From an uncultured Prevotellaceae bacterium (GTDB lineage Bacteria; Bacteroidota; Bacteroidia; Bacteroidales; Bacteroidaceae), in NCBI GenBank assembly GCA_902774925.1, contig CACYKE010000016.1:1-45901 (forward strand): 45,901 nt of DNA, given 5' to 3'. Each line of letters starts with the position of its first letter. The first letter of the stretch is position 1. The translations under genes were made by a program, and so were the position numbers. Below are positions 3,663 through 32,356 of the stretch, one piece after another. Below the pieces are notes generated by a model that ran no database searches, was not told where the DNA came from, and saw only the letters and a list, made by a program, of their open reading frames with translations.

Positions 3663-3704
3663 TTTTTGAGCAGTGAATGCTAGAAAAAATGGAAAATACC
3701 GTAT

Positions 3705-11862: not shown

Positions 11863-11869
11863 ATACTTA

Positions 11870-14030: not shown

Positions 14031-14058
14031 TTACTTTTTTACCTTTTTACATTTTACC
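14031..14058 (-). repeat. 7-8-bp-period TTAC array between murG and murC
   Basis: TTAC recurs on the plus strand at 14031, 14039, 14047 and 14054, with T-runs between. On the coding strand this reads as TAAAA-type units with G. It fills the whole murG-murC spacer, and the murG stop codon (14054-14056) is one of the units. T-rich composition makes chance a real possibility here. Confidence 0.4.
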
Positions 14059-15163
14059 TTTTCGCAAGTGATACCACCTCCTTGGCAATAATTTCAGCCG
14101 AAGCAGGCAGTGCCATCTTCAAGATATTTTCACTGAGAGTCTGCAACTTTGCATCGTCTTTCACCGTATCGATAGCCAACGGCATCAATAATGCCGGAGC
14201 CTCAACATCCTTGACATAGAGTGCAGCACCCTTATTGACCAAAGCCAGCGCATTCTTTGTCTGGTGGTCTTCTGCCACATTGGGCGAAGGAACAAGGATG
14301 ACTGGTTTGCCGAGCAGGCAGAATTCACTGATAGAACCAGCACCCGCACGGCTGACAACCAAATCTGCTGCTTTATAAGCGGCACCCATATCACTGATAA
14401 AGTCTGTCACGACCAGATTCTCCAACTTTTCTTCCTTGGCGAGCTGCTCTTTAATCTGCTCATAATAATACTTACCTGTCTGCCAGATAAATTGTACACC
14501 ACTCTGACGGATGACGTCAAGGTGTTTCAGCACACTCTCGTTAACGGTACGGGCACCCAGACTTCCGCCTACGATGAGTACTGTCTTCTTCGACACATCA
14601 AGATCAAAGGAACGAAGAGCCTCAACCTTAGTTTGCGTATTTTCCAACAATTGCTGACGCACGGGATTACCCGTCAACATGATCTTATCTGCAGGAAAGA
14701 AACGTTCCATACCTTCATAGGCCACACAAATCTTTGCCGCCTTCTTGGCAAGCAACTTGTTGGTAACACCAGCATAGGAGTTCTGTTCCTGAATCAAACA
14801 GGGAATACCCATGGCGGCCGCCTTGTTCAGCGTCGGACCACTGGCATAGCCGCCTACACCAACAGCCACCTGCGGACGAAACTCCTTGATGATTTGCTTG
14901 GCCATACGCTGACTCTTCCAAATCTTATAGAGCACCTTGACATTCTTCAGCAGGTTCTTACGGTCGAAACCCTGGATAGGCAGACCTTTTATCTCGTAGC
15001 CGGCAGCAGGCACACGTTGCATTTCCATGCGTCCTAAGGCGCCCACAAACAATATCTTGGCTTCAGGATGCATTGCCTTGATAGCATTGGCAATAGATAC
15101 AGCCGGGAAGATATGTCCACCCGTACCACCACCGCTGATTATTACTCTTAATTCGTCATTCAT
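14054..15163 (-). CDS. murG: Lipid II synthase MurG (UDP-GlcNAc transferase)
   Basis: This peripheral inner-membrane GT-B glycosyltransferase adds GlcNAc to lipid I to make lipid II. The N-terminal GGGTGGH motif is at residues 11-17. The C-terminal donor-binding region is SRAGAGSISEFCLLGKPVILVPSP followed by EDHQTKNA, the standard MurG pattern. The length of 369 aa is normal. It lies between ftsW and murC, 48 bp after the ftsW stop, in a spacer with a possible internal promoter. No signal peptide is seen, as expected for a cytoplasmic-face enzyme. Confidence 0.97.
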   Translation of the reverse strand: MNDELRVIISGGGTGGHIFPAVSIANAIKAMHPEAKILFVGALGRMEMQRVPAAGYEIKGLPIQGFDRKNLLKNVKVLYKIWKSQRMAKQIIKEFRPQVAVGVGGYASGPTLNKAAAMGIPCLIQEQNSYAGVTNKLLAKKAAKICVAYEGMERFFPADKIMLTGNPVRQQLLENTQTKVEALRSFDLDVSKKTVLIVGGSLGARTVNESVLKHLDVIRQSGVQFIWQTGKYYYEQIKEQLAKEEKLENLVVTDFISDMGAAYKAADLVVSRAGAGSISEFCLLGKPVILVPSPNVAEDHQTKNALALVNKGAALYVKDVEAPALLMPLAIDTVKDDAKLQTLSENILKMALPASAEIIAKEVVSLAKR

Positions 15164-15211: not shown

Positions 15212-16471
15212 TCAAGCCCTGTTTGGCTCATTTTCTTTCACTTTCTTCATTTTTGCTGACCTGCTGACACTCAAAATAGCTCCAATATAGGCACAATTGA
15301 TGATTGTCGACGTACCACCTTTGGAGATGAGTGGCAACGGCTGTCCCGTGACAGGGGCCAAGCCGACGGCTACCATCATATTGAAAGTGGCCTGTATGAC
15401 CAACAACAGCCCGAGCCCCATCGCCAGAAATGCCGGGAAATTATTCTCACACCGACTGGCAATACGTGCACAGCGATAAAGGAGGACAACATAGAGGAAC
15501 ATAACCGCGAAAGCCCCCACGATCCCCAATTCCTCAATGACGATGGCATAGATGAAATCCGAGAAAGCTTGCGACAGAAAGTCACGCTCCGTGCTCTTAC
15601 CAGGTCCCTTACCGATAATACCACTCGACACAATGGCAATATTGGCATGAGCCACCTGGGCATCTTTGTCAAGGTCGTATTCCTGAGGTGTTGGTTTGGG
15701 TTTACCAAACTTCATGATACGACTCTTCCACGTGTCAGCACGGTGGAACATCTTTTCCACGAAGTTCTTTTCTTTCTTGGGCTGATTGGCCTGATCAACC
15801 TGCTCCGTCTTAGTCAGAGTCTTTTCTTCATCACTGATATCGTGACCGACCAACATGACCATCGAAATGGCCACAACGGCAAAAATTATAATGATACCCG
15901 CCAGTTTACCTAACTGCTTCAAGGAAACCAAACCGATGAACATCATCAAGAAGACCACCGCAAAGAGCATCGCCGCCGTGGAGAGATTCTCTAGTCCTAT
16001 CAACACACAGGCAGGAATGGTAATCGAAAGAATCCACTTGAAGGCTTTTTTGTCTGCCCCGTTCTCACGTTGCATAGCGGCAAGAATCTGCGCTACAGCC
16101 AATACTATTGTTCCCTTGGCAATCTCTGAAGGCTGGAATGTGAAACCAAACAGGTTAATCCAACGTCCGGCATCACCGACCTTCGTTCCTGCCAGCAGAA
16201 CCCAGAGCAGGGTAATCACTGAGATCAGCATTAGGAAGGGTGTCATCAACTTAAAATACCGACATGGAACATTCAGCGTGAGGATAGCAACTACGACACC
16301 TGCCATGATGGTAAAGGCATGATAGGCTATCGGTCCTACGTAGTTCTGACTCTTATACGTCAGTCCGCTGGAAGCCGAGAATACTTCCACAACACTGATC
16401 ATACAGAGGAAGAAAAACACCATCCAGATGACCTTGTCGCCCTTGAAGAGATTACCTATTCGATTATTCAT
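15212..16471 (-). CDS. ftsW: Septal peptidoglycan polymerase FtsW (SEDS family)
   Basis: This is an integral membrane SEDS-family glycosyltransferase that polymerises lipid II at the septum with its partner class B PBP. It has ten or so hydrophobic segments, beginning at VIWMVFFFLCMISVVEVFSA. The SEDS motifs are visible as GKGPGKSTERDFLSQAFSDF and the C-terminal GQPLPLISKGGTSTI. A charged loop at about 205-270 (DEEKTLTKTEQVDQ onward) is longer than in E. coli FtsW. The length is 419 aa. The murD-ftsW-murG position indicates the division paralogue rather than RodA. It begins 33 bp after the murD stop across a TCTAGANNN array. Confidence 0.95.
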   Translation of the reverse strand: MNNRIGNLFKGDKVIWMVFFFLCMISVVEVFSASSGLTYKSQNYVGPIAYHAFTIMAGVVVAILTLNVPCRYFKLMTPFLMLISVITLLWVLLAGTKVGDAGRWINLFGFTFQPSEIAKGTIVLAVAQILAAMQRENGADKKAFKWILSITIPACVLIGLENLSTAAMLFAVVFLMMFIGLVSLKQLGKLAGIIIIFAVVAISMVMLVGHDISDEEKTLTKTEQVDQANQPKKEKNFVEKMFHRADTWKSRIMKFGKPKPTPQEYDLDKDAQVAHANIAIVSSGIIGKGPGKSTERDFLSQAFSDFIYAIVIEELGIVGAFAVMFLYVVLLYRCARIASRCENNFPAFLAMGLGLLLVIQATFNMMVAVGLAPVTGQPLPLISKGGTSTIINCAYIGAILSVSRSAKMKKVKENEPNRA

Positions 16472-16477
16472 CTTTTT

Positions 16478-16508
16478 CTAGTATTTCTAGAGATTCTAAA
16501 TCATCTAG
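16478..16508 (-). repeat. TCTAGANNN array between murD and ftsW
   Basis: CTAG, or its one-base variant CTAA, recurs at 16478, 16487, 16496 and 16505, an exact 9-bp spacing. Read on the coding strand, the units are close to TCTAGA plus three variable bases (tga, atc, aat, aaa). The murD stop codon TAG (16505-16507) is the CTAG core of the first unit. The array occupies nearly all of the 33-bp spacer. Confidence 0.7.
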
Positions 16509-17836
16509 AGATTTCTTGCTAATTCCTTAAACTGTTCACCACGGTCTTCCATATTCTTGAAAAGGTCGAACGATGCGCAACAGGGTGACAGCAACACCGT
16601 CATGCCGGGCTCGGCCATCTCGTAACAGGCTGCCACACAATCTTTCATGGAGTGGGTGTCACGAACGGGAATACCCAGTGAGTCGAAGTTGTCGTGCAGC
16701 TTCTGGTTGTCAGCGCCCAGATAAACCAATCCGGCACACTTCTCCTTCACTAACGGTTTGATAGGCTCGTAGTCATTGCCCTTATCCTTACCACCGATGA
16801 TAAGGATCGTCTTAGTCTTCATCGACTCCAGCGCATACCAGCAGGCGTCAACATTGGTAGCCTTCGAATCGTTGATATACTGAACACCACGGACGGTGCA
16901 CACCTTCTCCAAGCGATGCTCCACACCAGGGAAATCACTCAACGACTTACGAATATTCTCTTTCTTAATACCTGCGACATTTGATGCGATACCTGCAGCC
17001 AACGAGTTATAGATATTATGCTTACCTGTCAGGCTCAGCGATTCCTGTTCCATATTAAACGGCTCAGGTTTCTCTATCTTATACTGGCCCTCCTCGATAT
17101 AACCGATACTGCCGTTCTCCTTCAGTTCGGAGAAGGGGTACTGGATGGCCTTGATGTCATACTTCTCCAACTCCCTCTTGATGATAGGGTCGTCATTCCA
17201 ATAGATGAAGGCATCCTGTGGCGTCTGGTTCTGGATGATACGCATCTTGGCGTCCACATAGTTCTGCATCTTGAAATCGTAACGGTCCAAATGGTCTGGC
17301 GTAATATTAAGCAGAATAGCGACATTGGCACGGAAATCGTACATATTATCGAGTTGGAAAGAGGACAACTCAATGATATAGTATTCATGTGGATCCTCAG
17401 CAACCTGCAGGGCCAGTGAATTTCCGATATTGCCAGCCAGACCGGCATCATAACCTGCTTCCTTGAAGATATGATAGATAAGACTCGTCGTCGTCGTCTT
17501 ACCATTCGAACCAGTAATACAAATCATCTTCGAATGGGTATAGCGACCGGCAAACTCTATCTCACTGATAATGTGAATGCCTTTCTCCTTGATCTTAACA
17601 ATCATCGGGGCCGTATCGGGAATACCCGGACTCTTGATGATCTCGTCGGCATCCAGAATCTTTTCTTCCGTATGGTGACCTTCTTCCCAACAAATCTGGT
17701 GGTCATCCATCAGCTTTTTATACTTATCATTGATCTTCGACATGTCGCTGACAAACACGTCGAAACCTTGTTTCTTGGCCAGAACGGCAGCTCCTGCTCC
17801 GCTCTCTCCGGCTCCTAATATGACTATCTTACTCAT
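16505..17836 (-). CDS. murD: UDP-N-acetylmuramoyl-L-alanine--D-glutamate ligase
   Basis: This cytoplasmic Mur ligase adds D-Glu to UDP-MurNAc-L-Ala. The N-terminal nucleotide fold starts VILGAGESGAGAAVLA, the ATP loop GSNGKTTT is at about 109-116, and the C-terminal VLLSPCCASFDLFKNMEDRG is the classic MurD signature. The length is 443 aa. Its start lies 2 bp after the mraY stop, so the two are probably translationally coupled. Confidence 0.97.
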   Translation of the reverse strand: MSKIVILGAGESGAGAAVLAKKQGFDVFVSDMSKINDKYKKLMDDHQICWEEGHHTEEKILDADEIIKSPGIPDTAPMIVKIKEKGIHIISEIEFAGRYTHSKMICITGSNGKTTTTSLIYHIFKEAGYDAGLAGNIGNSLALQVAEDPHEYYIIELSSFQLDNMYDFRANVAILLNITPDHLDRYDFKMQNYVDAKMRIIQNQTPQDAFIYWNDDPIIKRELEKYDIKAIQYPFSELKENGSIGYIEEGQYKIEKPEPFNMEQESLSLTGKHNIYNSLAAGIASNVAGIKKENIRKSLSDFPGVEHRLEKVCTVRGVQYINDSKATNVDACWYALESMKTKTILIIGGKDKGNDYEPIKPLVKEKCAGLVYLGADNQKLHDNFDSLGIPVRDTHSMKDCVAACYEMAEPGMTVLLSPCCASFDLFKNMEDRGEQFKELARNL

Positions 17837-17838
17837 CT

Positions 17839-19110
17839 TTATCTAATCTTCAAAGTAATAATCGTTAATGCTGCTAATATAATCGTGGTAATCCAGAAAC
17901 GAATGGTAATCTTCGACTCGTGGAACGGACGGTGGGGCCAGCTCTTCAGAATGTACGTGCTGGTCTGGTCCAACTGGGAGTCAAGTTTACGGAAGGTATC
18001 ATGGATAGGGGTAGCACGGAACACTCTTACGCGCTTTCCCTTACGTTTCTGCAATTTAAACCACTGGGTTTGGATGATGACGCTCAAACTTTCAATAAAG
18101 AAAATGCCACATAGAATGGGGAGCATCAATTCCTTATGGATAATGACAGCACAGACACCGATGATACCGCCAATGGTCAATGAACCCGTATCGCCCATAA
18201 ATATCTGGGCGGGGAAGGCATTGTACCAAAGAAAACCCACCATCGCACCGATGAAGGCAGAAAGGAACACCACCAGTTCCTGGGAACCTGGGATATACAT
18301 AATATCGAAATAGGCGGCATAGATGATGTGGGACGATATATAGGAGAATATTAATAATGCCGCACCGATAATAGCCGAATTTCCAGCACACATACCATCC
18401 ATGCCATCATTCAGGTTGGCACCGTTCGACACAGCCGTCACAACGATAATCGTCATAATGACAAACAAAATCCAACCTGCTGCCACCTTATACTCACCCA
18501 AGAACGACATAATACTGGAGTAGTTCAGATTATGATTCTTGATAAAAGGAATGGTGGTCTGCAATGACTTCACGGCCTCAGTCTTGTGTTTTACCACTAT
18601 CTCTTGATTCTGCTTGACCTCAGACACATTCTCTCGGACTACAGCGTCAGGACTGAGCCAGAGTGTCAGGCCGACAATAAAACCGATTGACACCTGTCCC
18701 ACTATCTTATAGAGACCTTTGAGCCCTTCCTTGTTTTTGCGGAAAATCTTGATGTAATCATCCATAAAGCCAAGGAATCCAAGCCATACGGTAGTACCTA
18801 TCATCAGCAATAGATAGATGTTACGCATACGTCCCAACAGCAGTACGGGAATCAGGATGCTGACAATGATGATGATACCACCCATCGTGGGAACGCCTTT
18901 TTTCTCTACACCGAATGGGTCGATACTGGGGTCGCGAGCGGTTTCCGAAATATTGCGGCGCTTCATCCACTTGATGAAATACTCACCAAACCACGCTGAG
19001 ATAACTAGTGACAGGATGAGTGCCAACAACGAACGGAACGAGATATACGACCAGAGGTGCGCACCCGGGATATCATACTGCTCTAAGGATCTGAAAATAT
19101 AGTATAGCAT
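17839..19110 (-). CDS. mraY: Phospho-N-acetylmuramoyl-pentapeptide transferase
   Basis: This polytopic inner-membrane enzyme transfers phospho-MurNAc-pentapeptide to undecaprenyl phosphate to form lipid I. Signature regions include GVPTMGGIIII, the catalytic FMDDYIKIFRKNKEGLKG, NLNDGMDGMCAG (a variant of the usual NLTDGLDG) and FMGDTGSL. The length of 423 aa exceeds the 360 of E. coli. The difference is a loop of about 60 residues after the fourth or fifth membrane helix (REN...KHKTEAVKSLQTT), which is common in Bacteroidota versions. It lies 42 bp after murE across a CGTTATTA-type repeat. Confidence 0.96.
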   Translation of the reverse strand: MLYYIFRSLEQYDIPGAHLWSYISFRSLLALILSLVISAWFGEYFIKWMKRRNISETARDPSIDPFGVEKKGVPTMGGIIIIVSILIPVLLLGRMRNIYLLLMIGTTVWLGFLGFMDDYIKIFRKNKEGLKGLYKIVGQVSIGFIVGLTLWLSPDAVVRENVSEVKQNQEIVVKHKTEAVKSLQTTIPFIKNHNLNYSSIMSFLGEYKVAAGWILFVIMTIIVVTAVSNGANLNDGMDGMCAGNSAIIGAALLIFSYISSHIIYAAYFDIMYIPGSQELVVFLSAFIGAMVGFLWYNAFPAQIFMGDTGSLTIGGIIGVCAVIIHKELMLPILCGIFFIESLSVIIQTQWFKLQKRKGKRVRVFRATPIHDTFRKLDSQLDQTSTYILKSWPHRPFHESKITIRFWITTIILAALTIITLKIR

Positions 19111-19117
19111 ATTATTT

Positions 19118-19155
19118 CGTTTTTCGTTATTACGTTATAACGTTATTCGTTATTA
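19118..19155 (-). repeat. 7-8-bp-period CGTTATTA array between murE and mraY
   Basis: CGTT recurs on the plus strand at 19118, 19125, 19133, 19141 and 19148, separated by T/A triplets or quadruplets. The murE stop codon (TAA on the minus strand, 19153-19155) falls in the last unit. The array makes up almost all of the 42-bp spacer. Confidence 0.6.
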
Positions 19156-20622
19156 CGAATTGATTCCAAAAATCTCCCTAACTATCTCCCTGTCATCAAA
19201 ATGGTGCTTCACACCCTTGACTTCCTGATAGTCCTCATGACCCTTGCCGGCAATGAGGATGACATCACCCTTTTGGGCCAGCATACTGGCTGTACGGATA
19301 GCTTCCTTGCGGTCTACAATACTCACTACCTTCTTCATCTGCTTAGCGTCGAGACCTGCCAACATATCATTGATAATATCCTGAGGTTCTTCAAAACGCG
19401 GATTATCGGAGGTGATAATGACCTTGTCACTCTGTTTGACGGCCTCCTGAGCCATTAATGGACGCTTTCCCTTGTCACGGTTGCCACCAGCACCACAAAC
19501 GGTAATGACTTGTCCACCCTTACCATCCAGCACCTCATGAATGGCATTAAGCACATTCTCCAGGGCATCGGGCGTATGGGCATAGTCTACAATAGCGGTC
19601 ACTCCTTCCTGTGAACGGATAGGTTCCAGTCGACCTGCCACACTCTTCAACGTGCTGAGCACCAAGAGGATATCCTCCGGTTTCTTTCCTAACATCACAG
19701 CAGCGCCATAGACTGCCAACAGATTGGAGACGTTGAACTTTCCAATAAACTGAACACCAACCTCGCGACCATCAATCTCCAGATACATACCTTCGAAATG
19801 ACACTCGATGATGCGGGCACGGAAATCAGCCATCGAACGGGTGCTATAGGTCTTCACCTGTGCCTTCGTATTCTGAACCATCACACGACCATTCTTATCG
19901 TCGGCATTCGTAATGGCGAAAGCATCCTTGGACAATCCATCGAAGAAAGCTTTCTTGGCATCACGGTAGTTCTCAAAGGTCTTGTGGTAGTCCAAATGGT
20001 CACGAGTGAGGTTGGTAAAGAGGCCACCTGCAAATTTCAGTCCGCCAATACGCTTCTGGGCGATGGCATGACTGGAACACTCCATAAAGGCATACTCACA
20101 GCCAGCATCTACCATCTTAGCCAACAGTCGGTTGAGTTCGATGGGGTCAGGGGTGGTATGATCGGCAGGAATCACCTCATCCTCGATATAATTGCTGACA
20201 GTAGAAAGCAAACCGCACTTGTGGCCAAACTTACGGAACATATTATATAATAAGGTGGCAATAGTGGTCTTGCCATTGGTTCCTGTCACACCAACCAGCT
20301 TCAGCTTCTGCGACGGCTCGCCATAGAAAACGGTGGCAACCTTTCCAACAGCATCTTCCGTCGAGGCAACCTGCACATAGGTCACGCCACTATTCCCAAT
20401 CGCGCCAGCGTCGGGTAAATCCTCACACAGCACAGCCTTCGCTCCCAACTCAATAGCCTTGGGAATAAAACGGTGGCCGTCTGTCTGCGTACCTTTCATT
20501 GCCACGAAAAGATGACCATTCTCTACCTTGCGGGAGTCAATATTCACCCCCGTGATGTCCACCTCTGCATCACCCACGATAGTCAGAGGAGTTACATGCT
20601 TCAATAGTTCTGTCAGCTTCAT
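19153..20622 (-). CDS. murE: UDP-MurNAc-tripeptide synthetase, meso-diaminopimelate type
   Basis: This cytoplasmic Mur ligase adds the third stem-peptide residue. The ATP loop GTNGKTT is at about 114-120. The substrate-recognition motif is DNPR at about 406-409 ([10 protein letters not shown]), which in characterised MurE enzymes marks meso-diaminopimelate rather than lysine, so the peptidoglycan is predicted to be the m-DAP type. The C-terminal AGKGHEDYQ is typical. The length is 489 aa. It follows the PBP gene with an 18-bp A/T-rich gap. Confidence 0.97.
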
Positions 20623-20640
20623 ATATACCTTATTATATTA

Positions 20641-22773
20641 TTAATGTAACGTCAAAACACATTCCCCACCCTTGACAATTTCTTTGCCGGCAGGATAACT
20701 CTGCGACTTCACCTTGCCACGACCTTGTATCTTCACCTTTAGGCCACGACTCTCCAACACATAGACGGCATCCTTGGCACCCATGCCCGTCACGTCGGGG
20801 GTCACAGTTTCGCCATATACCTTGGCCGGTTGACTGACACGCTTGTTGACGCCTAACTCACCCAAGATGTAGTTGGCCGATGCGGCATCACCATTCTTCA
20901 CGTCTGGAATAACTACCGAATGCTCGTCATGGGCATCGTCCACACTCATCTTCAGATGACGTGCCATCACACCTTCTGCAATATGATGGAACACAACACC
21001 ACTCATACCACCACCTGAGGCGGGCAATCCGGATTTCTTAATACAGACGATACAGGAGTAGCGGGGATTATCGGCAGGGAAATAGCCTGCAAACGAAAGC
21101 CAATATTGTACTATACCACTCTTATAGCCTGACTTACCCTGTGACACCTGGGCTGTTCCGGTCTTACCTGCTACCTTGAACAACGGCGAACCGGCCTTTC
21201 GACCCAGTCCCTGACTGACGACATGCTCCAGAATAGTCTGAATGGTCTTCAGTGCCTCAGGTCTTGCAATGCGCTCCTTGATGACCTCTGGCTCAAACTC
21301 CTTGATAGTCTCGCCATTCTTAACAATCTTCTTAACGAAACGCGGCCTCATCATCTTACCATTATTGGCAATGGCATTATAGAACGTCACTGTATTGATG
21401 GGGGCAATCTGTGTCTCATAGCCTATCGACATCCAAGGCAACGTCGTGGCATACCAGTTGTCATCATAACGCCCATTCTTCTTGCGCTGGGGCATACGGA
21501 TAAGGGGAGGACGGTAACCGGGAAGAATATCCTGCAACTTCAGATCCTGACCGATACCTACCCTGTAAAGGCCTTTGACATAGCGTTCGGCCTCGTTATG
21601 GTAGAACTTGTCTATTACATGGCTCACACCGATATTCGAACTGACCTCCAGCGTTCTGGCCACATTGATATCACCATAGCCGCCACGACGCCAGTTGTGG
21701 TCTTTCATCTCACGGCCGTACATCGGCATGACACCACCTCCGGTATGGATGATATAGCTGGTATCCCGAGGATTCTCTCCCAACACCTTATCATCCAACG
21801 CAACAAGTATAGAGGCAGTCTTAAACACAGAACCTGGTTCACAGCGGTAACTCATGGCTGAATTGACAGCTTCAATGTAGTTGCCGTTTTCGTTCCTCAT
21901 CAGATTAACGATAGCCTTCACGTCACCGGTCTCTACTTCCATCAGAATAGCCACACCTAACTCACCATTGACCTCCGGTCGCTTCAGCATATCCAACAAC
22001 GAACGCTCTGCCAAGTCCTGCATATTGACATCAATGGTTGTCACAATATCACAACCATCTTCAGGCAGTGTCACAGGGATATTCATATATTTATTCAGCA
22101 CCTTGCGGCGACCCGTAATACCAGGAATACCGCGAAGGACGGAATCATTGGAGAGTTCCAAACCATAATAGGCGGAGTCTTTGGCACCATACAGGCCACC
22201 GATGGTACGCATGGCCAGAGAACCAAACGGACGACGGCGGGAATTGAAGGGCTCATCATGGAAACCGCTCTTATAACGGGGCATATTAAAGAATGGTAAC
22301 TGGCTGACCTCGACAAAAGTATTATAATCGATACGGCGTTTCCAAATGGGCCAGTGACGGGCTCCTACAGAACAGTTCTTGTTAACCTTATGGCGTCCCT
22401 CTTCCAAATCATGCTTAAACTCTTCCGCAGATTTCGATGGGAAAATCTTGTTCAAACCATTACAAACAGAATCCAATTTGTCAAGCCATAACGAGTCGTC
22501 CTTCTCAAAGGCTGCTGCCTGGAAATCCATAAAGATCTTATATTCTGGGATAGAAGTAGCCATCAACTGTCCGTCACAGCTGAGGATATTGCCTCGGTTG
22601 GGCTTCACGCTGACACTGTCACGCTTCAAGCGGTCGGCAACCTCCGTCCAATACTGCTTCTTGGCAGTCATGATATAGAGGGCCTTGCCTATGACAGCAA
22701 GCCCGATGATTGTCAGCAATACGGCAATCATCATGTATCGGGGCATGACTTTATCGTTATCAAACTTACTCAT
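20641..22773 (-). CDS. ftsI: Septal class B penicillin-binding protein FtsI with PASTA domain
   Basis: This transpeptidase cross-links septal peptidoglycan alongside FtsW. It has one N-terminal membrane helix (about 14-35), a dimerisation/pedestal domain starting RGNILSCDG, and a transpeptidase domain. The active-site Ser is at about 315 (GSVFK), the second motif SSN at 378-380 and the third motif KTGT at 537-540. The C-terminal 55 residues (VTPDVTGMGAKDAVYVLESR onward) form one PASTA-like module, as in the FtsI/SpoVD forms of Bacteroidota. The length is 710 aa. It sits directly after the ftsL-like gene with a 4-bp gap. Confidence 0.95.
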   Translation of the reverse strand: MSKFDNDKVMPRYMMIAVLLTIIGLAVIGKALYIMTAKKQYWTEVADRLKRDSVSVKPNRGNILSCDGQLMATSIPEYKIFMDFQAAAFEKDDSLWLDKLDSVCNGLNKIFPSKSAEEFKHDLEEGRHKVNKNCSVGARHWPIWKRRIDYNTFVEVSQLPFFNMPRYKSGFHDEPFNSRRRPFGSLAMRTIGGLYGAKDSAYYGLELSNDSVLRGIPGITGRRKVLNKYMNIPVTLPEDGCDIVTTIDVNMQDLAERSLLDMLKRPEVNGELGVAILMEVETGDVKAIVNLMRNENGNYIEAVNSAMSYRCEPGSVFKTASILVALDDKVLGENPRDTSYIIHTGGGVMPMYGREMKDHNWRRGGYGDINVARTLEVSSNIGVSHVIDKFYHNEAERYVKGLYRVGIGQDLKLQDILPGYRPPLIRMPQRKKNGRYDDNWYATTLPWMSIGYETQIAPINTVTFYNAIANNGKMMRPRFVKKIVKNGETIKEFEPEVIKERIARPEALKTIQTILEHVVSQGLGRKAGSPLFKVAGKTGTAQVSQGKSGYKSGIVQYWLSFAGYFPADNPRYSCIVCIKKSGLPASGGGMSGVVFHHIAEGVMARHLKMSVDDAHDEHSVVIPDVKNGDAASANYILGELGVNKRVSQPAKVYGETVTPDVTGMGAKDAVYVLESRGLKVKIQGRGKVKSQSYPAGKEIVKGGECVLTLH

Positions 22774-22777
22774 CTCT

Positions 22778-23269
22778 TTATTCTGGCACTTCTATGATGT
22801 AGGGCGGCTGGTCGGCTTGATGCAACAGCGAGTCCTGATTTTGTTTCAATATATCTAATACGTGACTCTCACGGCATTTCTCCGTCAATGTACTCGACGA
22901 GGAGAGAGCCTTGTATTTAGCGTCAGTCAGTTTCTGCTCGAGTTTATCAATGGCAATCATGTCCTGCTGACACTGGTAACGGAAGGCGACATAGACAATA
23001 GAAAAGGCTACAATCAAAACAAACAACCAAATCTGCGAACGGACTACTTCCGTCGTCAGCAGGTCACCACCCAGTATGGTACGCAGGTTCAGCTGGCTGG
23101 AAGGTTTCGGGTCTTCCTCGCTAGCCGACTCCTTAATCATCTGAATCGTCTCCTTGAGTGTTGACTCCTTGGCCTTGTCCTCTTCCTCGGCTCCGGAAAC
23201 CTGTTCCTCGGCCAGGGGTTGTTCCTCTATCACCAAGGGCACCTCGTCTTGTTTCTTGTCTTCTGCCAT
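22778..23269 (-). CDS. ftsL: FtsL-like divisome protein
   Basis: This 163-residue bitopic protein sits between rsmH and the septal PBP, exactly where ftsL lies in dcw clusters. It has an acidic, Glu-rich cytoplasmic N-terminus (1-79), one membrane helix at about 80-97 (IWLFVLIVAFSIVYVAF), then a short periplasmic helix with coiled-coil character (KLEQKLTDAKYKALSSS). Sequence conservation in FtsL is low, so the name rests on position and topology. The start overlaps the rsmH stop by one base (TAATG), implying translational coupling. The extended acidic N-terminus is longer than in E. coli FtsL. Confidence 0.82.
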   Translation of the reverse strand: MAEDKKQDEVPLVIEEQPLAEEQVSGAEEEDKAKESTLKETIQMIKESASEEDPKPSSQLNLRTILGGDLLTTEVVRSQIWLFVLIVAFSIVYVAFRYQCQQDMIAIDKLEQKLTDAKYKALSSSSTLTEKCRESHVLDILKQNQDSLLHQADQPPYIIEVPE

Positions 23270-24180
23270 TATATTTTCTCTGCTATTCTCAATTTTGCAC
23301 TTCTACTACGCGGATTACGCTGCTGCTCACCCTCCGTGGGAGTAATCATCTTCTCAACCAACCGATAAGGCGACGAGATACGACCATAAAAGTCCTGCTC
23401 AACCTTACCTTCCGCATTGCCGGCCTTCATGACGTTCTTAACGATACGGTCTTCCAGCGAGTGATAGGTAATGATACTCAACCTTCCACCCTCACAGAGC
23501 AGGTCTGTAGCACCTTTAAGCATATCACGTAAGGCATCCATCTCATGGTTCACCTCAATACGCAGCGCCTGATACAACTTGGCCATATCTTTCTTCTCAC
23601 GCTCAGAACGCATCAAGGGCTCAATAGCCTCAGCCAACTGACCCGTAGTTGTTATCTCATGCTGCCGACGACAGTCGCAAATTGCTTTGGCGATGCGACG
23701 GGCATTCTTCAATTCTCCGTAGAGATAGAACACATCGGCCAACTGCTCCTCACTATAGTTGTTCAAGATGTCAGCGGCTGTCTGTCCGGCACGTTTGTTC
23801 ATCCTCATGTCCAGCGGAGCGTCAAAACGGAAAGAGAAACCTCGCGTCTCGTCATCGAAATGGTGACTTGACACACCTAAATCTCCTAACAGACCATCAA
23901 TCTTCTCTACTTCATAGTAGCGCATCCACTGACTGATATATCTAAAGTTGCTGCGAACGAAGGTGAATCTATCATCATCGACAATATTTTTCTCCGCATC
24001 AGCATCCTGGTCGAAGCTATACAGATGACCTTTCTTACCCAAACGGGACAGAATCTCTTTCGAATGACCACCACCACCGAAAGTTACATCCACGTAAATG
24101 CCGTCGGGCTGGATATCCAGCCCGTCGACGCTCTCTTTCAAGAGAACAGGAACGTGATATGTCTCTGCGGTTGTTATCAT
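23269..24180 (-). CDS. rsmH: 16S rRNA m4C1402 methyltransferase
   Basis: This cytoplasmic SAM-dependent enzyme (formerly MraW) methylates N4 of cytidine 1402 in 16S rRNA. The N-terminus HVPVLLKESVDGL and the SAM-binding VDVTFGGGGHSKEIL are typical. The family segments GLLGDLGVSSHHFDDETRGFSF and ALRIEVNHEMDAL are also present, as is the terminal PRSRSAKLR. The length is 303 aa. It follows mraZ after 21 bp and overlaps ftsL by one base. Confidence 0.97.
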   Translation of the reverse strand: MITTAETYHVPVLLKESVDGLDIQPDGIYVDVTFGGGGHSKEILSRLGKKGHLYSFDQDADAEKNIVDDDRFTFVRSNFRYISQWMRYYEVEKIDGLLGDLGVSSHHFDDETRGFSFRFDAPLDMRMNKRAGQTAADILNNYSEEQLADVFYLYGELKNARRIAKAICDCRRQHEITTTGQLAEAIEPLMRSEREKKDMAKLYQALRIEVNHEMDALRDMLKGATDLLCEGGRLSIITYHSLEDRIVKNVMKAGNAEGKVEQDFYGRISSPYRLVEKMITPTEGEQQRNPRSRSAKLRIAEKI

Positions 24181-24201
24181 TATCTTCTATCGCTTTTGTG
24201 G

Positions 24202-24654
24202 TCATTCTTGCTCTACCATCATCAACTGTTCAAGGGCATTGCCGAAATCCTCTGGCTTCATTTGCTGTTCTTCGACCTTACGACTGCTCCATATCTCAAT
24301 GGTGTCATCCATGCCGACAAACTTAATGTCCTGATCAATCTCAGCCATACGCAAATAGCGTTTCGGAATCAAAAAACGTCCGTTACCGTCAAGGGTCACC
24401 AGTTCTACTTCCGACACAAACTGACGAAACACCTGTTGTTCCTGACGGTTCCATCTGTTGAGACGGGCCCTCAACAAATCCATCTGCTCATTCCACACGC
24501 TTTCAGGATACAACACCAGACAGGCTTGGAACACATCCTTACGCATTACAAGTCGTTCCTCACCACCAGCCTGCAAAACCTTGCGGAAGGTGGCGGGAAG
24601 GAATGCGCGTCCCTTCACGTCAATCTTGGCTTCTATATTACCTAAAAAACGCAT
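24202..24654 (-). CDS. mraZ: Transcriptional regulator MraZ
   Basis: This 150-residue DNA-binding protein regulates the dcw cluster it heads. It holds two SpoVT/AbrB-like halves, each with the DxxGR type of motif: IDVKGRAFLPATFRKVL near residue 12 and LDGNGRFLIPKRYLRMAEI near residue 90. MraZ from other bacteria binds tandem GTGG-containing boxes at its own promoter, and three such boxes lie just upstream here (24710-24736). The ATG at 24654 gives the standard MRFLGNIEAKID start. Confidence 0.96.
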   Translation of the reverse strand: MRFLGNIEAKIDVKGRAFLPATFRKVLQAGGEERLVMRKDVFQACLVLYPESVWNEQMDLLRARLNRWNRQEQQVFRQFVSEVELVTLDGNGRFLIPKRYLRMAEIDQDIKFVGMDDTIEIWSSRKVEEQQMKPEDFGNALEQLMMVEQE

Positions 24655-24693
24655 GCGTACCTCTTTTATATATTTTTAATACGAGTTTGGCTG

Positions 24694-24701
24694 CAAAGGT
24701 A
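24694..24701 (-). promoter_or_regulatory. -7 element of the mraZ/dcw promoter
   Basis: TACCTTTG on the minus strand is a perfect TAnnTTTG element 39 bp before the mraZ ATG, giving a leader of about 35 nt. No TTTG is found 19-21 bp upstream. That position is taken by the G-rich MraZ-type boxes. Confidence 0.65.
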
Positions 24702-24709
24702 ATCATTTT

Positions 24710-24736
24710 CCCCCACATTCCCCCACTTTTCTCCAC
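24710..24736 (-). promoter_or_regulatory. Triple MraZ-type operator
   Basis: Read on the minus strand, GTGGAG, GTGGGG and GTGGGG occur at 24731-24736, 24721-24726 and 24711-24716, exactly 10 bp apart, separated by the tetranucleotides AAAA and GAAT. MraZ of E. coli and Mycoplasma binds tandem GTGG-core boxes at one-helical-turn spacing upstream of mraZ. The array begins 9 bp upstream of the -7 element and covers the -33 region, so MraZ binding should block RNA polymerase. Confidence 0.75.
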
Positions 24737-24770
24737 TTTTTTTAGTGAATAAACTATAAAAAGTTACTTT

Positions 24771-24798
24771 ATTGCACATTTTTCTAAAAAAGTGCAAT
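24771..24798. promoter_or_regulatory. Inverted repeat in the mraZ-glsA intergenic region
   Basis: ATTGCACATTTTT (24771-24783) is the inverted complement of AAAAAGTGCAAT (24787-24798) with one bulged A. The TTGCAC/GTGCAA ends are separated by about two helical turns. It lies just upstream of the -7 element at 24819-24826, where a -33 element would be, so it may be an operator for the acyltransferase operon. Confidence 0.45.
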
Positions 24799-24818
24799 CA
24801 TTATCTAAATAAAATCAC

Positions 24819-24826
24819 TATCTTTG
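24819..24826 (+). promoter_or_regulatory. -7 element of the glsA-glsB promoter
   Basis: TATCTTTG fits TAnnTTTG and lies 26 bp before the ATG at 24853. No clear TTTG is seen 19-21 bp upstream; the inverted repeat occupies that region. Confidence 0.6.
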
Positions 24827-24852
24827 CATCCTGTTAGGGACAATATAGAGAA

Positions 24853-25677
24853 ATGGGACAGATAACGGAGAAAACAATTGACATTGATCAGATACTAAAA
24901 AACAAAATGGGGTCCAAGGCAAAATGGATTCCCGGTTTCTTAGTATCGTGGCTCAAACGTGTTGCGCATCAGGATCAGGTGAACGCATTCCTTTGGGAAT
25001 CACGCGATAAGGTGGGAACTCCGTGGCTCGAAGCCTGCGTAGAATATCTGCAGATGACACTTAAGATAGAAGGAACGGAAAACCTGCCCGCCAAAGATGA
25101 TGGACGACTATATACCTTCGTGTCAAACCATCCTCTGGGGGGAGCCGATGGTGTAGCACTTGGAGCCATCATCGGAAAACATTATGATTCCCGATTCCGC
25201 TATCTGGTCAACGACCTCCTGATGTACCTGCCCGGACTGGCACCACTCTGTATCCCCATCAATAAAACCGGTCACCAAAGTCGTAACTTCCCGGCTATGG
25301 TCAAGGCGGGATTCGAAAGCGACAACCACATGCTGATGTACCCGGCCGGCATCTGCTCACGCCGCAAGAACAAGGTCATCAGAGATATCCCTTGGTCGAA
25401 GACGTTCATATCAAAGAGCGTGGAATACCAGCGCGACGTCGTACCCATCCATTTCAGCGGTCAGAACTCTGATTTTTTCTACCGTTTGGCAAATTTCTCC
25501 GACCGTTTCCTACCCTTCAACCTTGCGATGCTTTTCCTCGTCGACGAAATGTACAAAAACGTCGGCAAGACATTCGAGGTGAGAATTGGAAAACCAATCC
25601 CCTGGCAGACCTTCGACAAAAGCAAAAGCCCATCGGAATGGGCACAATATGTGCAAGATCTGGTCTATAATCTCTAG
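24853..25677 (+). CDS. glsA: Glycerolipid-type O-acyltransferase, probable glycine lipid synthase GlsA
   Basis: This 274-residue PlsC-like acyltransferase is likely to act on the cytoplasmic face of the inner membrane. The catalytic block is NHPLGGADG at residues 92-100: a His followed by an Asp six residues on, in place of the HX4D of classical PlsC. A second block, MYPAGICSRR, matches the FPEG-type substrate motif. This NHPLGG wording is typical of the acyltransferases that pair with OlsB/GlsB-like N-acyltransferases, and such a gene follows here. In Bacteroides thetaiotaomicron glsB and glsA make N-acyl glycine lipids, with GlsA adding the second, O-linked acyl chain. The assignment to glycine lipids is an inference from that pairing. 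A plain lysophosphatidate acyltransferase is the alternative. Confidence 0.75.
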   Translation: MGQITEKTIDIDQILKNKMGSKAKWIPGFLVSWLKRVAHQDQVNAFLWESRDKVGTPWLEACVEYLQMTLKIEGTENLPAKDDGRLYTFVSNHPLGGADGVALGAIIGKHYDSRFRYLVNDLLMYLPGLAPLCIPINKTGHQSRNFPAMVKAGFESDNHMLMYPAGICSRRKNKVIRDIPWSKTFISKSVEYQRDVVPIHFSGQNSDFFYRLANFSDRFLPFNLAMLFLVDEMYKNVGKTFEVRIGKPIPWQTFDKSKSPSEWAQYVQDLVYNL

Positions 25678-25704
25678 CCCCTCTAGATCCTCTAGAACAT
25701 CTAG
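25674..25704 (+). repeat. TCTAGANNN array between glsA and glsB
   Basis: CTAG occurs at 25674, 25683, 25692 and 25701, an exact 9-bp spacing. The three bases after each hexamer-like core differ. The glsA stop codon TAG (25675-25677) is the core of the first unit. The rest of the 52-bp spacer (to 25729) is A/T-rich and holds nothing else I can name. Confidence 0.75.
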
Positions 25705-25729
25705 TTAACAACTATAATAACTTCAGACA

Positions 25730-26722
25730 ATGGAACAACCTATCATCTCTCCCATCAGCAAGGAAGTCCTCAAGAGTGAGTTGACGCCCGACAAGCAGTT
25801 GCGAATGACCAACAAGAGCAACAACGAAATCTACATCATTACGGCGCATAATGCTCCGAACGTGATGCAGGAGATTGGTCGTCTGCGTGAAATCGTATTC
25901 CGCGAGGCTGGCGGTGGAACGGGCAAGCCTGTGGATATCGATGAGTTCGACGTCTGCGACAACTGCTACAAACAACTCATCGTCTGGAATCCGGAGGAGG
26001 AGGAGATTATAGGAGGTTACCGTTACCTGTTAGGTTCCGACTGGGAATACGACGAGAAAGGACAGCCCATCCTCGCTACCAGTCATATGTTCCATTTCTC
26101 TGAGAAATTCTTGAAGGATTATGCCCCTTGGACAGTAGAGCTGGGACGCTCCTTCGTCTCACTACCCTACCAGTCATCCAAGATGGGTGCGAAGAGCATG
26201 TTCGCCCTTGACAACCTGTGGGATGGCCTGGGAGCACTGACCGTCATCCGTCCTTCCATCAAATACTATTTTGGCAAGATGACCATGTATCCCTCTTATA
26301 TCCGCAAGGGACGCGACATGATACTCTTCTTCCTCAAAAAGCACTTTGACGACAAGGAACGGCTCATCATTCCGATGAAACCACTGGAAATTGAGACAAA
26401 TCCGACTGAATTGGAGGCGCTCTTCTGCGGCACAAACTTCAAGGAGGATTACATGATTCTGAATCGTGAAATCCGTAAACTGGGCTATAACATCCCGCCA
26501 TTGGTCAATGCCTATATGGGACTTTCACCAACGATGAAACTCTTTGGCACCGCCATCAACTATGGTTTCGGCGATGTGGAGGAAACGGGTATCCTCATTG
26601 CCATCGACGAGATTTTCGAATTCAAGCGCAAGCGCCATATCGACTCATTCATTCAGGCACACCGCGATGAACTCGAACTGACCTCTGGCGCCAACAAGCT
26701 GATTTACAAGGACAAAGACTAA
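25730..26722 (+). CDS. glsB: GNAT-fold N-acyltransferase, probable glycine lipid synthase GlsB
   Basis: This 330-residue protein belongs to the OlsB/haemolysin-like GNAT-fold acyltransferases. Family blocks are RLREIVFREAGGGTGKPVDI at about 48-67, the LIVWNPEEEEIIGGYRYL strand and the VELGRSFVSLPYQ block, which corresponds to the ELGRS motif of OlsB and acyl-homoserine-lactone synthases. In B. thetaiotaomicron GlsB transfers a 3-hydroxyacyl chain to glycine, giving commendamide-type molecules that GlsA then acylates. The second half (after about 230) is an extension of unknown role. It follows glsA by 52 bp, sharing its promoter, and converges on dgt with a 3-bp gap. Confidence 0.75.
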   Translation: MEQPIISPISKEVLKSELTPDKQLRMTNKSNNEIYIITAHNAPNVMQEIGRLREIVFREAGGGTGKPVDIDEFDVCDNCYKQLIVWNPEEEEIIGGYRYLLGSDWEYDEKGQPILATSHMFHFSEKFLKDYAPWTVELGRSFVSLPYQSSKMGAKSMFALDNLWDGLGALTVIRPSIKYYFGKMTMYPSYIRKGRDMILFFLKKHFDDKERLIIPMKPLEIETNPTELEALFCGTNFKEDYMILNREIRKLGYNIPPLVNAYMGLSPTMKLFGTAINYGFGDVEETGILIAIDEIFEFKRKRHIDSFIQAHRDELELTSGANKLIYKDKD

Positions 26723-26725
26723 TTG

Positions 26726-28069
26726 TCAGATAATCGGCAACGAAATGCCGTTGATCTTCTGATAGACATCCAAGGCATAGACATCCGTCATGCCTGAGAT
26801 ATAGTCGATGATAGCCATCAACCTCGTTTCCAAATCATCGGCATTGATGTCGTACTGCGACGAGACACGCCCTATCAACTGTTGCGAATAATAACGTTCC
26901 GGATTCATCACCGCTTCGGTCATCTTGTCCATCAGCGTAGCCATAATCTGGTAACCCGACAACTCCACATCCAGTACAGGACGGCTCTTATAGATTTTCT
27001 GCACGGAGAGCTTGGCACACCGTTTATAGGCCTCACACTGTTTGGGACTGATATGGTCTATCAGACTACCCTCAAAGGTGCCATTCAATATCTCCTCCTC
27101 ATGGTCCACAAAGGTCTTGACGCACTCATTCTCCAACTTACCAATGACACAAGCACGCAGATAGACCACCATCTCGTTCTCATCAGTTAACTGCTCGTCC
27201 ACTATACGCTGCTTGATGCGTTCTTGCGTCTCTTCATCAAAGAAATCAAGGAACAGTTTCGATACCGTTTCATACGACAGAATCTTCAATTTATGGGCAT
27301 CCTCCAAGTCCATAATTTCATAGCAGATATCATCAGCTGCCTCCACCAAATACACCAACGGATGACGCACATAACGGAGGGGTTCGCCGGGCTTCGACGT
27401 ACAGAAAATGCCCATTTCATCGGCTAATCGCTGGTAAATCTCCTTCTCGCTGTCGAAGAAACCGAACTTTCCCTTCTTGCTGGGGGCCATCGATGAATAG
27501 GGGTACTTCACGATACTAGCAATGGTGGAATAGGTCATCACAAAACCACCTGGGCGGCGACCCCTAAACTGATGCGTCAACAAGCGGAAAGCATTGGCAT
27601 TACCTTCAAAATGAGTGATATCCGACCAGAATGCCGGCGATACCTTCTCTTTCAAAAAGCGTCCTACACCTTCGGTAAAGAATGTCTGGATGGCCTTCTC
27701 ACCGGAATGGCCGAAAGGCGGATTTCCCAAGTCGTGTGCCAGACACGCTGTAGCCACAATCTGTCCAATCTCCTCAAACAGGGTACCGCTTAATTCCGGA
27801 TGGCGGTCTCTTATCAGGAGCCGCGACACATCATTACCCAATGACATACCCACACTGGCCACCTCCAACGAGTGCGTCAATCGGTTATGCACAAATACAC
27901 TACCCGGCAATGGGAACACCTGTGTCTTGTTCTGCAGGCGTCGGAACGGTGCCGAGAAAATCAGTCGGTCATAGTCACGTTTAAACTCCGTACGGTCGTC
28001 GTGCCGTTCCACATGGCGGTGCTCCTGCCCCAGCCGCTTGTTAGATATCAATTGTTTCCAGTCCATCAT
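26726..28069 (-). CDS. dgt: Deoxyguanosinetriphosphate triphosphohydrolase
   Basis: This HD-domain hydrolase cleaves dGTP (and possibly other dNTPs) to deoxynucleoside and tripolyphosphate. The N-terminus has the family block DYDRLIFSAPFRRLQNKTQV. The metal-binding HD residues are H66 (RLTHSLEVA) and H112-D113 (CLAHDLGNPPFGHSGE). A third HD-type block is at YLVEAADDICYEIMDLEDA. The length is 447 aa, as expected. It starts 21 bp after the ComEA-like gene stop and is probably co-transcribed with it. Confidence 0.93.
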   Translation of the reverse strand: MMDWKQLISNKRLGQEHRHVERHDDRTEFKRDYDRLIFSAPFRRLQNKTQVFPLPGSVFVHNRLTHSLEVASVGMSLGNDVSRLLIRDRHPELSGTLFEEIGQIVATACLAHDLGNPPFGHSGEKAIQTFFTEGVGRFLKEKVSPAFWSDITHFEGNANAFRLLTHQFRGRRPGGFVMTYSTIASIVKYPYSSMAPSKKGKFGFFDSEKEIYQRLADEMGIFCTSKPGEPLRYVRHPLVYLVEAADDICYEIMDLEDAHKLKILSYETVSKLFLDFFDEETQERIKQRIVDEQLTDENEMVVYLRACVIGKLENECVKTFVDHEEEILNGTFEGSLIDHISPKQCEAYKRCAKLSVQKIYKSRPVLDVELSGYQIMATLMDKMTEAVMNPERYYSQQLIGRVSSQYDINADDLETRLMAIIDYISGMTDVYALDVYQKINGISLPII

Positions 28070-28090
28070 ATCTTTATGTCTTCTAACTTC

Positions 28091-29014
28091 TTAAAACTCC
28101 ACATAAGGTTCCAACCGGCGAATAGCCTCCGGCGGGAAGTCCTTCGATAGGCGCAAATCATCCAAACTGGTAATCTTGCCGTGCAAACGGCGATAGTCCA
28201 GAATGGTCTTGGCCTGATAATAATTTATATATGGATGCTTGCGCAACTGTTGTAAGTTCAACTTGTTGACATTCAACTTCTTAGGCGAAGCACCCTGAAT
28301 CACAAAATACTTCTTCGACTCCTGCGGAAAACCCTCTATCTCGTCCAACTGGTCGACACTGACATAGCCGCCTAACCATTGTCCGTGACGTACTATCTCC
28401 TTGGCATAATAGGCTCCAATACCCGGCACCGTCCGCAACTGCGTTGTATCAGCAGTATTCAGCACCACATGCTCGTTTTCCTTAATCTTAACGGGATAAT
28501 GCAAACTAGAATCTCTAGACTCTCTAGTATCACTAGAATTTCTAGAATCTCTAGACTCTCTAGCCCCTCCTACCAGCATCGCCGCCGGCTGATAATCACT
28601 TGAAATCTGGATATACGGTTCCAACTCCCGATACTGCTTGACAGTCAATCCATAGAGCTTTGCAAAATCTTCTTTCTGCCGGTAGATGCCTCCTTTCGCC
28701 CTATATTTATAAATGTTTCGCACCTGCCATGGCTGCAGTCCCAGTCGCAGCAACTGCGTACTATCAGCCGTATTGGGGTCAAACGGAAACCGCTCCACCG
28801 CGCGGCTCTCCACCGCATAATAGGAATTACTAGAATCTCTAGACCCACTAGAACCTCTAGACAATCTAGATTCTCTAGAATAACTAGAATCTCTAGTCTC
28901 CTCATCCCCCTGCGTCGACGTCGGCGGGTTATCCCCGCCGATCCATATCCCCACCAGCGCTAACACCCCGACACACACTGCGGCAATTGCTACCCTTCGG
29001 TCATTTCGGTTCAT
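28091..29014 (-). CDS. ComEA-like helix-hairpin-helix protein with Ser-Arg repeats
   Basis: This 307-residue, membrane-anchored, predicted DNA-binding protein has one N-terminal helix (about 8-26) and three helix-hairpin-helix modules. They are near FDPNTADSTQLLRLGLQPWQ, VLNTADTTQLRTVPGIGAYY and LNVNKLNLQQLRKHPYINYY. ComEA-type proteins bind incoming DNA during transformation, but many Bacteroidota carry such genes without a proven role. Two linkers are Ser-Arg rich: about residues 40-62 (before the first module) and 151-170 (between modules). Both are encoded by TCTAGANNN arrays, with AGA/AGT codons not typical of neighbouring genes. Its ATG overlaps the upstream transporter stop by 4 bp. 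Confidence 0.85.
   Translation of the reverse strand: MNRNDRRVAIAAVCVGVLALVGIWIGGDNPPTSTQGDEETRDSSYSRESRLSRGSSGSRDSSNSYYAVESRAVERFPFDPNTADSTQLLRLGLQPWQVRNIYKYRAKGGIYRQKEDFAKLYGLTVKQYRELEPYIQISSDYQPAAMLVGGARESRDSRNSSDTRESRDSSLHYPVKIKENEHVVLNTADTTQLRTVPGIGAYYAKEIVRHGQWLGGYVSVDQLDEIEGFPQESKKYFVIQGASPKKLNVNKLNLQQLRKHPYINYYQAKTILDYRRLHGKITSLDDLRLSKDFPPEAIRRLEPYVEF
28506..28563 (-). repeat. In-gene TCTAGANNN array 1 (seven units)
   Basis: CTAG occurs at 28506, 28515, 28524, 28533, 28542, 28551 and 28560, a perfect 9-bp period over seven units. The interleaved triplets vary (atc, ctc, atc, att, atc, ctc, ccc on the plus strand). Because 9 is a multiple of 3, the array is translated as Ser-Arg-X triplets between the first and second HhH modules. 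Confidence 0.85.
28830..28896 (-). repeat. In-gene TCTAGANNN array 2 (eight units)
   Basis: CTAG occurs at 28830, 28839, 28848, 28857, 28866, 28875, 28884 and 28893, a perfect 9-bp period over eight units. The triplets between hexamers are nearly all different (atc, ccc, acc, caa, ttc, ata, atc, ctc on the plus strand). It encodes the Ser-Arg-rich linker after the membrane helix. Confidence 0.85.
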
Positions 29015-32234: not shown

Positions 32235-32262
32235 CAAGGTCGTAGCAACGACGTAGGAAGAA
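32208..32262 (+). repeat. 11-bp CGTAG array at the 3' end of the VanZ-like gene
   Basis: CGTAG occurs at 32208, 32219, 32230, 32241 and 32252, an exact 11-bp period over five units of the form GCGTAGCAAGG. The first units are coding, the stop codon TAG (32232-32234) is a CGTAG core, and the rest is untranslated. Confidence 0.8.
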
Positions 32263-32356
32263 GAGGCTAAGAAGAGGGTAAGAAGAAGGATAAGAAGAAG
32301 GATAAGAAGAAGGATAGAAGAAGGTAAGAAGAGAGGTAGAAGAAGGATAGAAGATG
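32263..32356. repeat. Purine-rich 11-12-bp array (AAGAAGAAGGAT type)
   Basis: This stretch is nearly all A and G with a T about every 12 bases (T-A steps near 32268, 32279, 32291, 32303, 32315, 32325, 32337 and 32348). The core holds three perfect AAGAAGAAGGAT-type units. It continues directly from the CGTAG array and lies between two convergent genes. No coding frame is supported here. Confidence 0.75.

Follow-up and report, generated by a model that had tools for sequence, protein, structure and literature searches.

What holds four bases at an exact interval when the bases between them vary freely? The question is raised by a stretch of 45,901 nucleotides (nt), contig CACYKE010000016.1 (the window, meaning the whole stretch of DNA analysed), which contains four short arrays of the tetranucleotide CTAG, here called ladders. 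The host genome is labelled G000 below, other genomes bear G-numbers and the loci read L-numbers; by FtsI, the nearest named relatives of the host are rumen Prevotella metagenome-assembled genomes (99% RUG14561, 98% RGIG3297). The answer favoured here, with a probability of roughly 0.6, is that the ladders are the dispersed half of a two-part repeat system, in which CTAG boxes at a fixed step are paired with the gene of a four-helix protein that carries ladders of its own.

A conserved box at a fixed step

Four arrays, with CTAG starts 9 base pairs (bp) apart in all of them, had been described from the sequence before (the original prediction), and both points are confirmed. The unit had been taken as TCTAGA plus three variable bases; the 9-bp step stands, whereas the constant element proves to be CTAG, TCTAGA being only a preference of this genome. 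The strict form TCTAGA-N3-TCTAGA occurs 4 times in the window, bases 5 and 9 of the unit are preferences only (A after the core in 77/88 and T before it in 75/88, over 433 kb of G000), and the flanking-base preference differs in other species. CTAG-N5-CTAG occurs 17 times in the window, versus a mean of 0.57 and a maximum of 3 in 100 shuffles. CTAG, which the original prediction called rare in many bacterial genomes, is rare here too, with 48 occurrences in the window versus 136.5 expected, 22 of the 48 inside the four arrays.

A search of the whole genome found the three-unit pattern CTAGN5CTAGN5CTAG 123 times in G000, and the reversed control, GATC at step 9, not once, so that other arrays, whose absence was to count against the original prediction, are present in number. 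Step-9 triples were also counted in the 433 kb of G000 that, like the stretches of relatives, were largely picked for arrays: CTAG formed 65 and each of the 15 other palindromic tetranucleotides at most 2, and CTAG outside arrays occurred there 225 times versus 693 expected. Ladders at step 9 range from 3 to 16 cores, and in a few of them a degenerate core intervenes. As a separate observation, GATC is as depleted as CTAG in the G000 stretches L115-L134 and the window (605 versus 1766 expected), yet forms no ladders.

Beyond the host, 19 of 60 relatives, own genome included, matched the three-unit pattern, and none of the 24 that lie outside the genus. It was found in 163 of 299 sampled genomes of the genus, where the GATC control reached at most 7 per genome. 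In a sample of 395 genomes of the phylum, a four-unit pattern was present in three: G000, one with a single match and one with identical units; for the GATC control, four-unit matches numbered up to 26 per genome in other families of the phylum. The family with the 26 matches includes G639, in which runs of 4 and 5 GATC units were read, at step 9 and with spacers that vary (L286 from 3108, L287 from 3651). In G010, CTAG ladders are fused to (AACTCTC)n heptamer arrays, the two kinds being concentrated at 1.52-1.71 Mb of the 1.98-Mb contig C3 (L157-L169), and identical composite arrays stand at several places. Clustering about the replication origin was considered for G010 and is unsupported, though weakly tested: dnaA lies on another contig, and 16 short dnaA loci hold one step-9 pair. 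Literature searches aimed at such arrays or at CTAG found none in Prevotella; TIGR04258, the protein family taken up below, in connection with repeats was outside their scope.

The step is genome-specific. In G000 the distance between nearest CTAG neighbours is 9 bp in 93 cases, 10 bp in one and 8 bp in none, and triples at step 9 versus step 10 number 123 versus 0 in G000, 0 versus 59 in G008, 0 versus 25 in G019 and 52 versus 34 in G027. None of the 27 arrays read in G008, G019 and G027 is coding, as is expected since a 10-bp step breaks the reading frame. That flanking bases set the step was considered and rejected: pooled over G027, G008 and G017, A..T and G..C flanks number 29/14 at step 9 and 1/66 at step 10, but G017 has 14 G..C at step 9, and the relation is mainly a species effect.

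Comparison of sister species separates the box from its spacers. Arrays occupy the same positions in three sister species (G000, G060 and G061) wherever both flanks can be matched; orthologs were found for 10 and 11 of 25 G000 arrays in two comparisons, 5 of each being equal in length. The original prediction proposed comparing unit numbers, and across the sisters these do vary, in many cases by 9 or 18 bp. When the third species of the three is used to define the units, core positions differ at 3/128 (G000-G060), 3/136 (G000-G061) and 8/148 (G060-G061), and the middle three spacer bases at 20/72, 21/78 and 36/88, respectively. Fourfold sites of 8 genes differ from G000 by 0.186 and 0.340 (261/1406 for G000-G060). 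Synonymous core positions of four coding arrays are not change-free, with 0/16, 2/20 and 3/23 changed in the three comparisons. The comparison thus supports the view that CTAG is kept by selection while the spacers drift at about the neutral rate, and the near-neutral change of spacers together with near-constant CTAG points to ordinary duplication, subsequent spacer drift and purifying selection on CTAG and step. Of the two explanations originally offered, selection on a phased palindrome survives for CTAG (3/128 versus 20/72) and not for the palindromic hexamer, and an unusual copying process is unnecessary, as units are near-identical in some species (L195, L024, L080) and spacers drift afterwards.

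Traces of such growth are visible. The acyltransferase-spacer ladder of the window has 2 cores in L049 and L080, 3 in L046 and 4 in G000, G060, G061, L035 and L036, with the same downstream sequence. Adjacent spacers are identical in 0/65 cases in G000 and 9/66 in G010, and similarity of the middle three spacer bases in G000 is 0.397 within arrays versus 0.273 between them, as expected of old copies or a shared base bias. Several other accounts were rejected. Quasi-palindrome correction fails, with reverse-complement similarity of 0.172 within arrays versus 0.278 between (G000), and avoidance of identical neighbouring spacers is not significant (0 versus 1.75 expected, P 0.12). For a palindromic hexamer as core, palindromic flanks reach 0.496 versus 0.383 in an all-genome shuffle, with no excess over a within-genome shuffle; among eight genomes, G027 and G061 exceed the genome shuffle and none exceeds the within-array shuffle, so that flank palindromy is mainly a species preference. 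Selection at the protein level does not account for one ladder type in two reading frames and between genes.

A four-helix protein gene beside ladders

When genes near arrays were clustered, one family was found in four genomes, and a profile search of all loci read located its gene at 14 places. Of these 14 copies, 12 have a CTAG ladder no more than 113 bp away (11 of them no more than 43 bp), and 13 have a ladder of some kind at 260 bp or less. For comparison, a background set of 80 ftsI-centred loci contains 1431 genes, of which 26 lie within about 100 bp of a CTAG triple. CTAG ladders flank the gene on both sides in G008, G001 and G014, and dispersed ladders exist besides the gene-side ones in G001, G008 and G017. 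Other copies stand beside other cores. The second G008 copy (L244) has eight CTATA units (TATA core) at step 9 upstream, in a genome whose CTAG ladders have step 10, and the G311 copy has CTTAGG ladders on both sides plus a few CCTAGG units.

As the loci were mostly chosen for arrays, most weight falls on genomes with few ladders (those read were drawn from the genomes listed in the relative and genus scans), on a plasmid hit and on a relative from a viral collection. All step-9 triples adjoin the gene in G005 (6), G006 (5), G014 (16), G015 (4), G106 (8), G173 (1) and G315 (3), and where a low-count genome has its ladders at a single locus, the gene is at that locus in 7 of 9. A protein search blind to arrays, over 72,556 plasmid records, gave one hit, in Prevotella nigrescens, annotated as a four helix bundle suffix protein; the gene ends at 3669 and a ladder starts 48 bp after it, with CTAG at 3717, 3726, 3735 and 3744. 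The one relative from the viral collection, a distant one (33% identity) on a contig that may be bacterial, has four TCGGAC/TCAGAC ladders at steps 9 and 10, two of them flanking the gene, each unit being a hexamer plus three or four variable bases. A phage collection gave no protein hit, and second and third viral scans added nothing. The four-helix protein is the prime suspect for reading or spreading the ladders, since several genomes with few ladders keep them right beside its gene.

The gene belongs to the TIGR04258 four-helix-bundle-suffix family (68 and 69.8 bits for two members, cut-off 40) and also matches TIGR02436, and PF05635, the 23S rRNA intervening-sequence protein, is matched by all 11 aligned members. 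Modelled with AlphaFold from 11 sequences, the protein is helical throughout, its C-terminal helix being long, at a predicted local distance difference test score (pLDDT) of 82.8 and a predicted template-modelling score (pTM) of 0.69. The best Foldseek matches of the model are 2gsc and 2rld, S23-type four-helix proteins (probability 1.00, template-modelling score by target up to 0.86, best E 0.010); no match reaches E 0.001. Searching solved sequences by profile returned 2gsc only (E 0.005).

Proposed mechanism, rival explanations and placement

A constant box, exact spacing, freely varying spacers and an adjacent gene to match together fit a protein that recognises boxes in register. The first part of the proposed system would be the ladder of CTAG boxes, at a step of 9 bp, or 10 bp in some species; the second would be the gene for a TIGR04258 suffix-family protein, with an S23-like fold, a C-terminal coiled coil and its own ladders alongside. 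An oligomer of the protein would recognise box and step with one box per subunit, so that only four bases and the spacing need be kept, and ladders would lengthen through ordinary tandem duplication, in many cases starting at a CTAG that a TAG stop codon had supplied. The target may be DNA or RNA, and the pair may serve the host, at transcript ends or in local DNA architecture, or spread itself as pairs of repetitive extragenic palindromes (REPs) and REP-associated tyrosine transposases (RAYTs) are thought to. A wider generalisation is offered tentatively, at somewhat less than even odds: TIGR04258-type proteins could be a new repeat-reading, perhaps repeat-writing, class, each copy matched to its own core (CTATA, CTTAGG, TCGGAC, CTAG) at a 9- or 10-bp step beside the gene, and ladder and protein would co-evolve in core and step; in many Prevotella the ladders would have been planted at dozens of core operons and through coding sequence, with CTAG purged elsewhere.

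Several observations weigh against the two-part system. Most of the 14 gene places were fetched for CTAG arrays, the exceptions being L244, L252, P. nigrescens and the viral contig, and L252 is the one copy of the 14 with no ladder. A search of the window and of 433 kb of G000 turned up no copy of the gene, and none was seen at the single loci of G022 and G125, in the 3 and 4.5 kb read, or at the one of two G194 loci that was read. The G014 gene is split between two frames, and the match in G150 covers just a short piece. The core and spacer counts come from 8 array triples, and alignment itself tends to bring matching cores together. Among the Foldseek matches listed, there is no solved relative in complex with nucleic acid. 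Finally, HTH_17, present in 25 of 27 genomes, array-rich and array-free alike, and other candidate proteins may be the ladder readers.

It is also conceivable, though unlikely, that gene and ladder together make up a selfish or mobile element from which the host gains nothing, and whose protein promotes copying or spread of its ladder, CTAG being kept as only recognised units persist. The gene flanked on both sides by ladders in G008, G001, G014 and G311, the identical composite arrays of G010 and the lack of shared function among neighbours of dispersed ladders are all consistent with this. However, array positions are inherited vertically between sister species, CTAG in old dispersed ladders is constrained, and the four-helix fold is unlike a known transposase.

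An improbable alternative is that another DNA-binding protein, BldC-like or CopG-like, reads the ladders, the four-helix gene being merely a frequent neighbour. BldC protomers bind 9-bp direct repeats as head-to-tail filaments with a varying number of repeats, according to the accessible text of PMC5859096, and a CopG complex has a 5-base sequence between half-sites in that of PMC3325190. Yet different cores beside different copies of one gene family would not be expected, and two such candidates fall away among the 27 genomes: TrpR (PF01371) is over cut-off in none, with one sub-threshold match, and RHH_1 (PF01402), the one ribbon-helix-helix (RHH) family searched for a CopG-type reader, is found in none.

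Placement relative to genes bears on a further rival. Gene calls for these counts were home-made, and the ComEA-like gene of the window was shortened in them, so that its two ladders were counted as intergenic though coding. On this basis, 151 arrays comprise 37 in coding sequence, 79 between co-directional genes, 20 in convergent and 6 in divergent gaps and 9 at edges, divergent gaps holding 6 of 105 intergenic arrays versus 24% of intergenic bases (P 5e-7). Among the 79 co-directional arrays, 57 lie nearer the upstream stop and 20 nearer the start, and 16 begin at or over the stop; the upstream gene ends in TAG in 30 of the 79, versus 227 of 1218 genes. Ladders use two coding frames (S-R-x and L-E/D-x) and in the third start at a TAG stop. 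The best NCBIfam matches of neighbours, some below cut-off, include rpoN, prfB, Kdo transferase, gcvPB, a DEAD-box helicase, rnr, rpsI, rpsB and dapA, and genes near dispersed ladders have no common functional theme.

This distribution could suggest a transcribed element that works in RNA at 3' ends, as a CUAG repeat or as hairpins, with no part for the four-helix protein; this reading is nevertheless judged very improbable. The scarcity of divergent arrays (6/151) and the bias toward the upstream stop (57/79) agree with it, as do folding better than shuffles (mean z -5.3, 19 arrays) and an excess of CTGG over CCAG cores on the sense strand (14 versus 5). Against this, other palindromes would fold equally well, and the other mismatched cores are nearly strand-symmetric (ATAG 8, CTAT 7; TTAG 5, CTAA 6; CAAG 7, CTTG 4). 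Complementarity of spacer ends was not above shuffles in 8 genomes and was below them in G010, leaving a hairpin model unsupported. Ordinary microsatellite slippage with noise, CTAG being in the unit by chance, is hardly credible: short repeats of other kinds, 7, 8, 9 and 11 bp long, are present and some CTAG arrays have identical units, as in the 9/66 of G010, but the 0/65 of G000, the recurrence of a single core and step both at unrelated loci within a genome and throughout the genus, and the conservation of CTAG far above the spacers already contradict it.

In the window itself (neighbouring genes assigned by Pfam), ladder 1 (16478..16508), of CTAG, CTAG, CTAA and CTAG at step 9, lies between its upstream neighbour murD (16505..17836, minus strand), whose TAG stop codon sits within the CTAG at 16505, and its downstream neighbour ftsW (15212..16471, minus strand). 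Ladder 2 (25674..25704; 4 cores, step 9) lies between two acyltransferase genes, where the original prediction named glsA and glsB; its first core contains the TAG stop of the upstream acyltransferase (PF19576; 24853..25677, plus strand), and a GNAT-type acetyltransferase (PF13444; 25730..26722, plus strand) follows. Ladders 3 (28506..28563; 7 cores, step 9) and 4 (28830..28896; 8 cores, step 9) are in linkers of a ComEA-like gene (28091..29014, minus strand; a 307-amino-acid HHH_3 protein), ladder 3 as Ser-Arg-x / Ser-x repeats. The unit numbers first given, 4, 7 and 8, are thus borne out, except that the murD-ftsW array has three CTAG plus one degenerate CTAA. Different repeats occupy some of these places elsewhere. 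The ComEA-like linker has CCTA at step 9 (Pro-Thr-x) instead of CTAG in three related species (L037, L038, L039), and the murD-ftsW spacer of species without CTAG ladders there (L051, L041, L061) has 8-bp repeats around CGAAA/CGGAA, which may belong to other four-helix gene copies. The window also has 11-bp tandem arrays at 32207-32362 and 41642-41737, at both ends of a 3146-amino-acid frame (32368-41808), and different degenerate 9- and 8-bp repeats in other operon spacers (11867-11903, 14030-14062, 19112-19157).

Comparison with known repeats and operators

As a rule, tandem repeats conserve the entire unit; these ladders preserve four bases and a step, and do so at unrelated loci in roughly half of the genomes sampled from a large and abundant genus. 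Cyanobacterial short tandemly repeated repetitive (STRR) heptamers are likewise short dispersed tandem repeats, with near-identical copies, unlike the CTAG ladders with their free spacers. Operators of CopG, MetJ and TrpR have short cores in tandem at 8-9 bp, and differ from the ladders in lying at only a few promoters. CTAG-containing hexamers are core sites of the Trp and Met repressors, according to the available text of PMC1166578. The sites of BldC, as far as the text of PMC5859096 was available, resemble the ladders as 9-bp direct repeats in varying number, loose in sequence and bound by a cooperative oligomer, and differ in belonging to Streptomyces promoters, a MerR-like protein and sequences with no CTAG. 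CTAG profiling in Salmonella describes CTAG as rare and conserved at intergenic places, as here; there the CTAGs are isolated rather than in ladders, and the words array and tandem are absent from the text of PMC5337935 as available.

The ladder-side gene belongs to the TIGR04258, TIGR02436 and PF05635 families, whose names show no ladder association, and the link to it yields a testable pair of a protein family without known role and a likely target. Natural controls are at hand in species with 9- and 10-bp steps, in copies with other cores and in one-ladder genomes. Should the pair turn out to organise DNA or transcripts, a new system of Bacteroidota would have been uncovered.

The closest parallel in design is the REP-RAYT pair, in which RAYT genes are flanked by REPs, with co-evolution and correlation of gene and repeat, as given in the accessible text of PMC2817692. 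To the extent of that text, both have one protein gene flanked by a repeat that also populates the genome, co-variation of the two, and extragenic, regularly spaced repeats. However, a RAYT is an IS200/IS605-type transposase, whereas the protein here has an S23-like four-helix fold (TIGR04258/TIGR02436, PF05635; 2gsc, 2rld), and REPs are palindromes in alternating orientation, whereas the ladders repeat a 4-bp box at constant spacing and occur within genes as well. A conserved hairpin palindrome as in REPs was not found in the ladders, CTAG alone being conserved and cross-spacer complementarity no higher than in shuffles. The parts being unrelated, the ladder system is not a member of REP-RAYT; if the pair works in the same manner, it would be a second, unrelated invention of that design.

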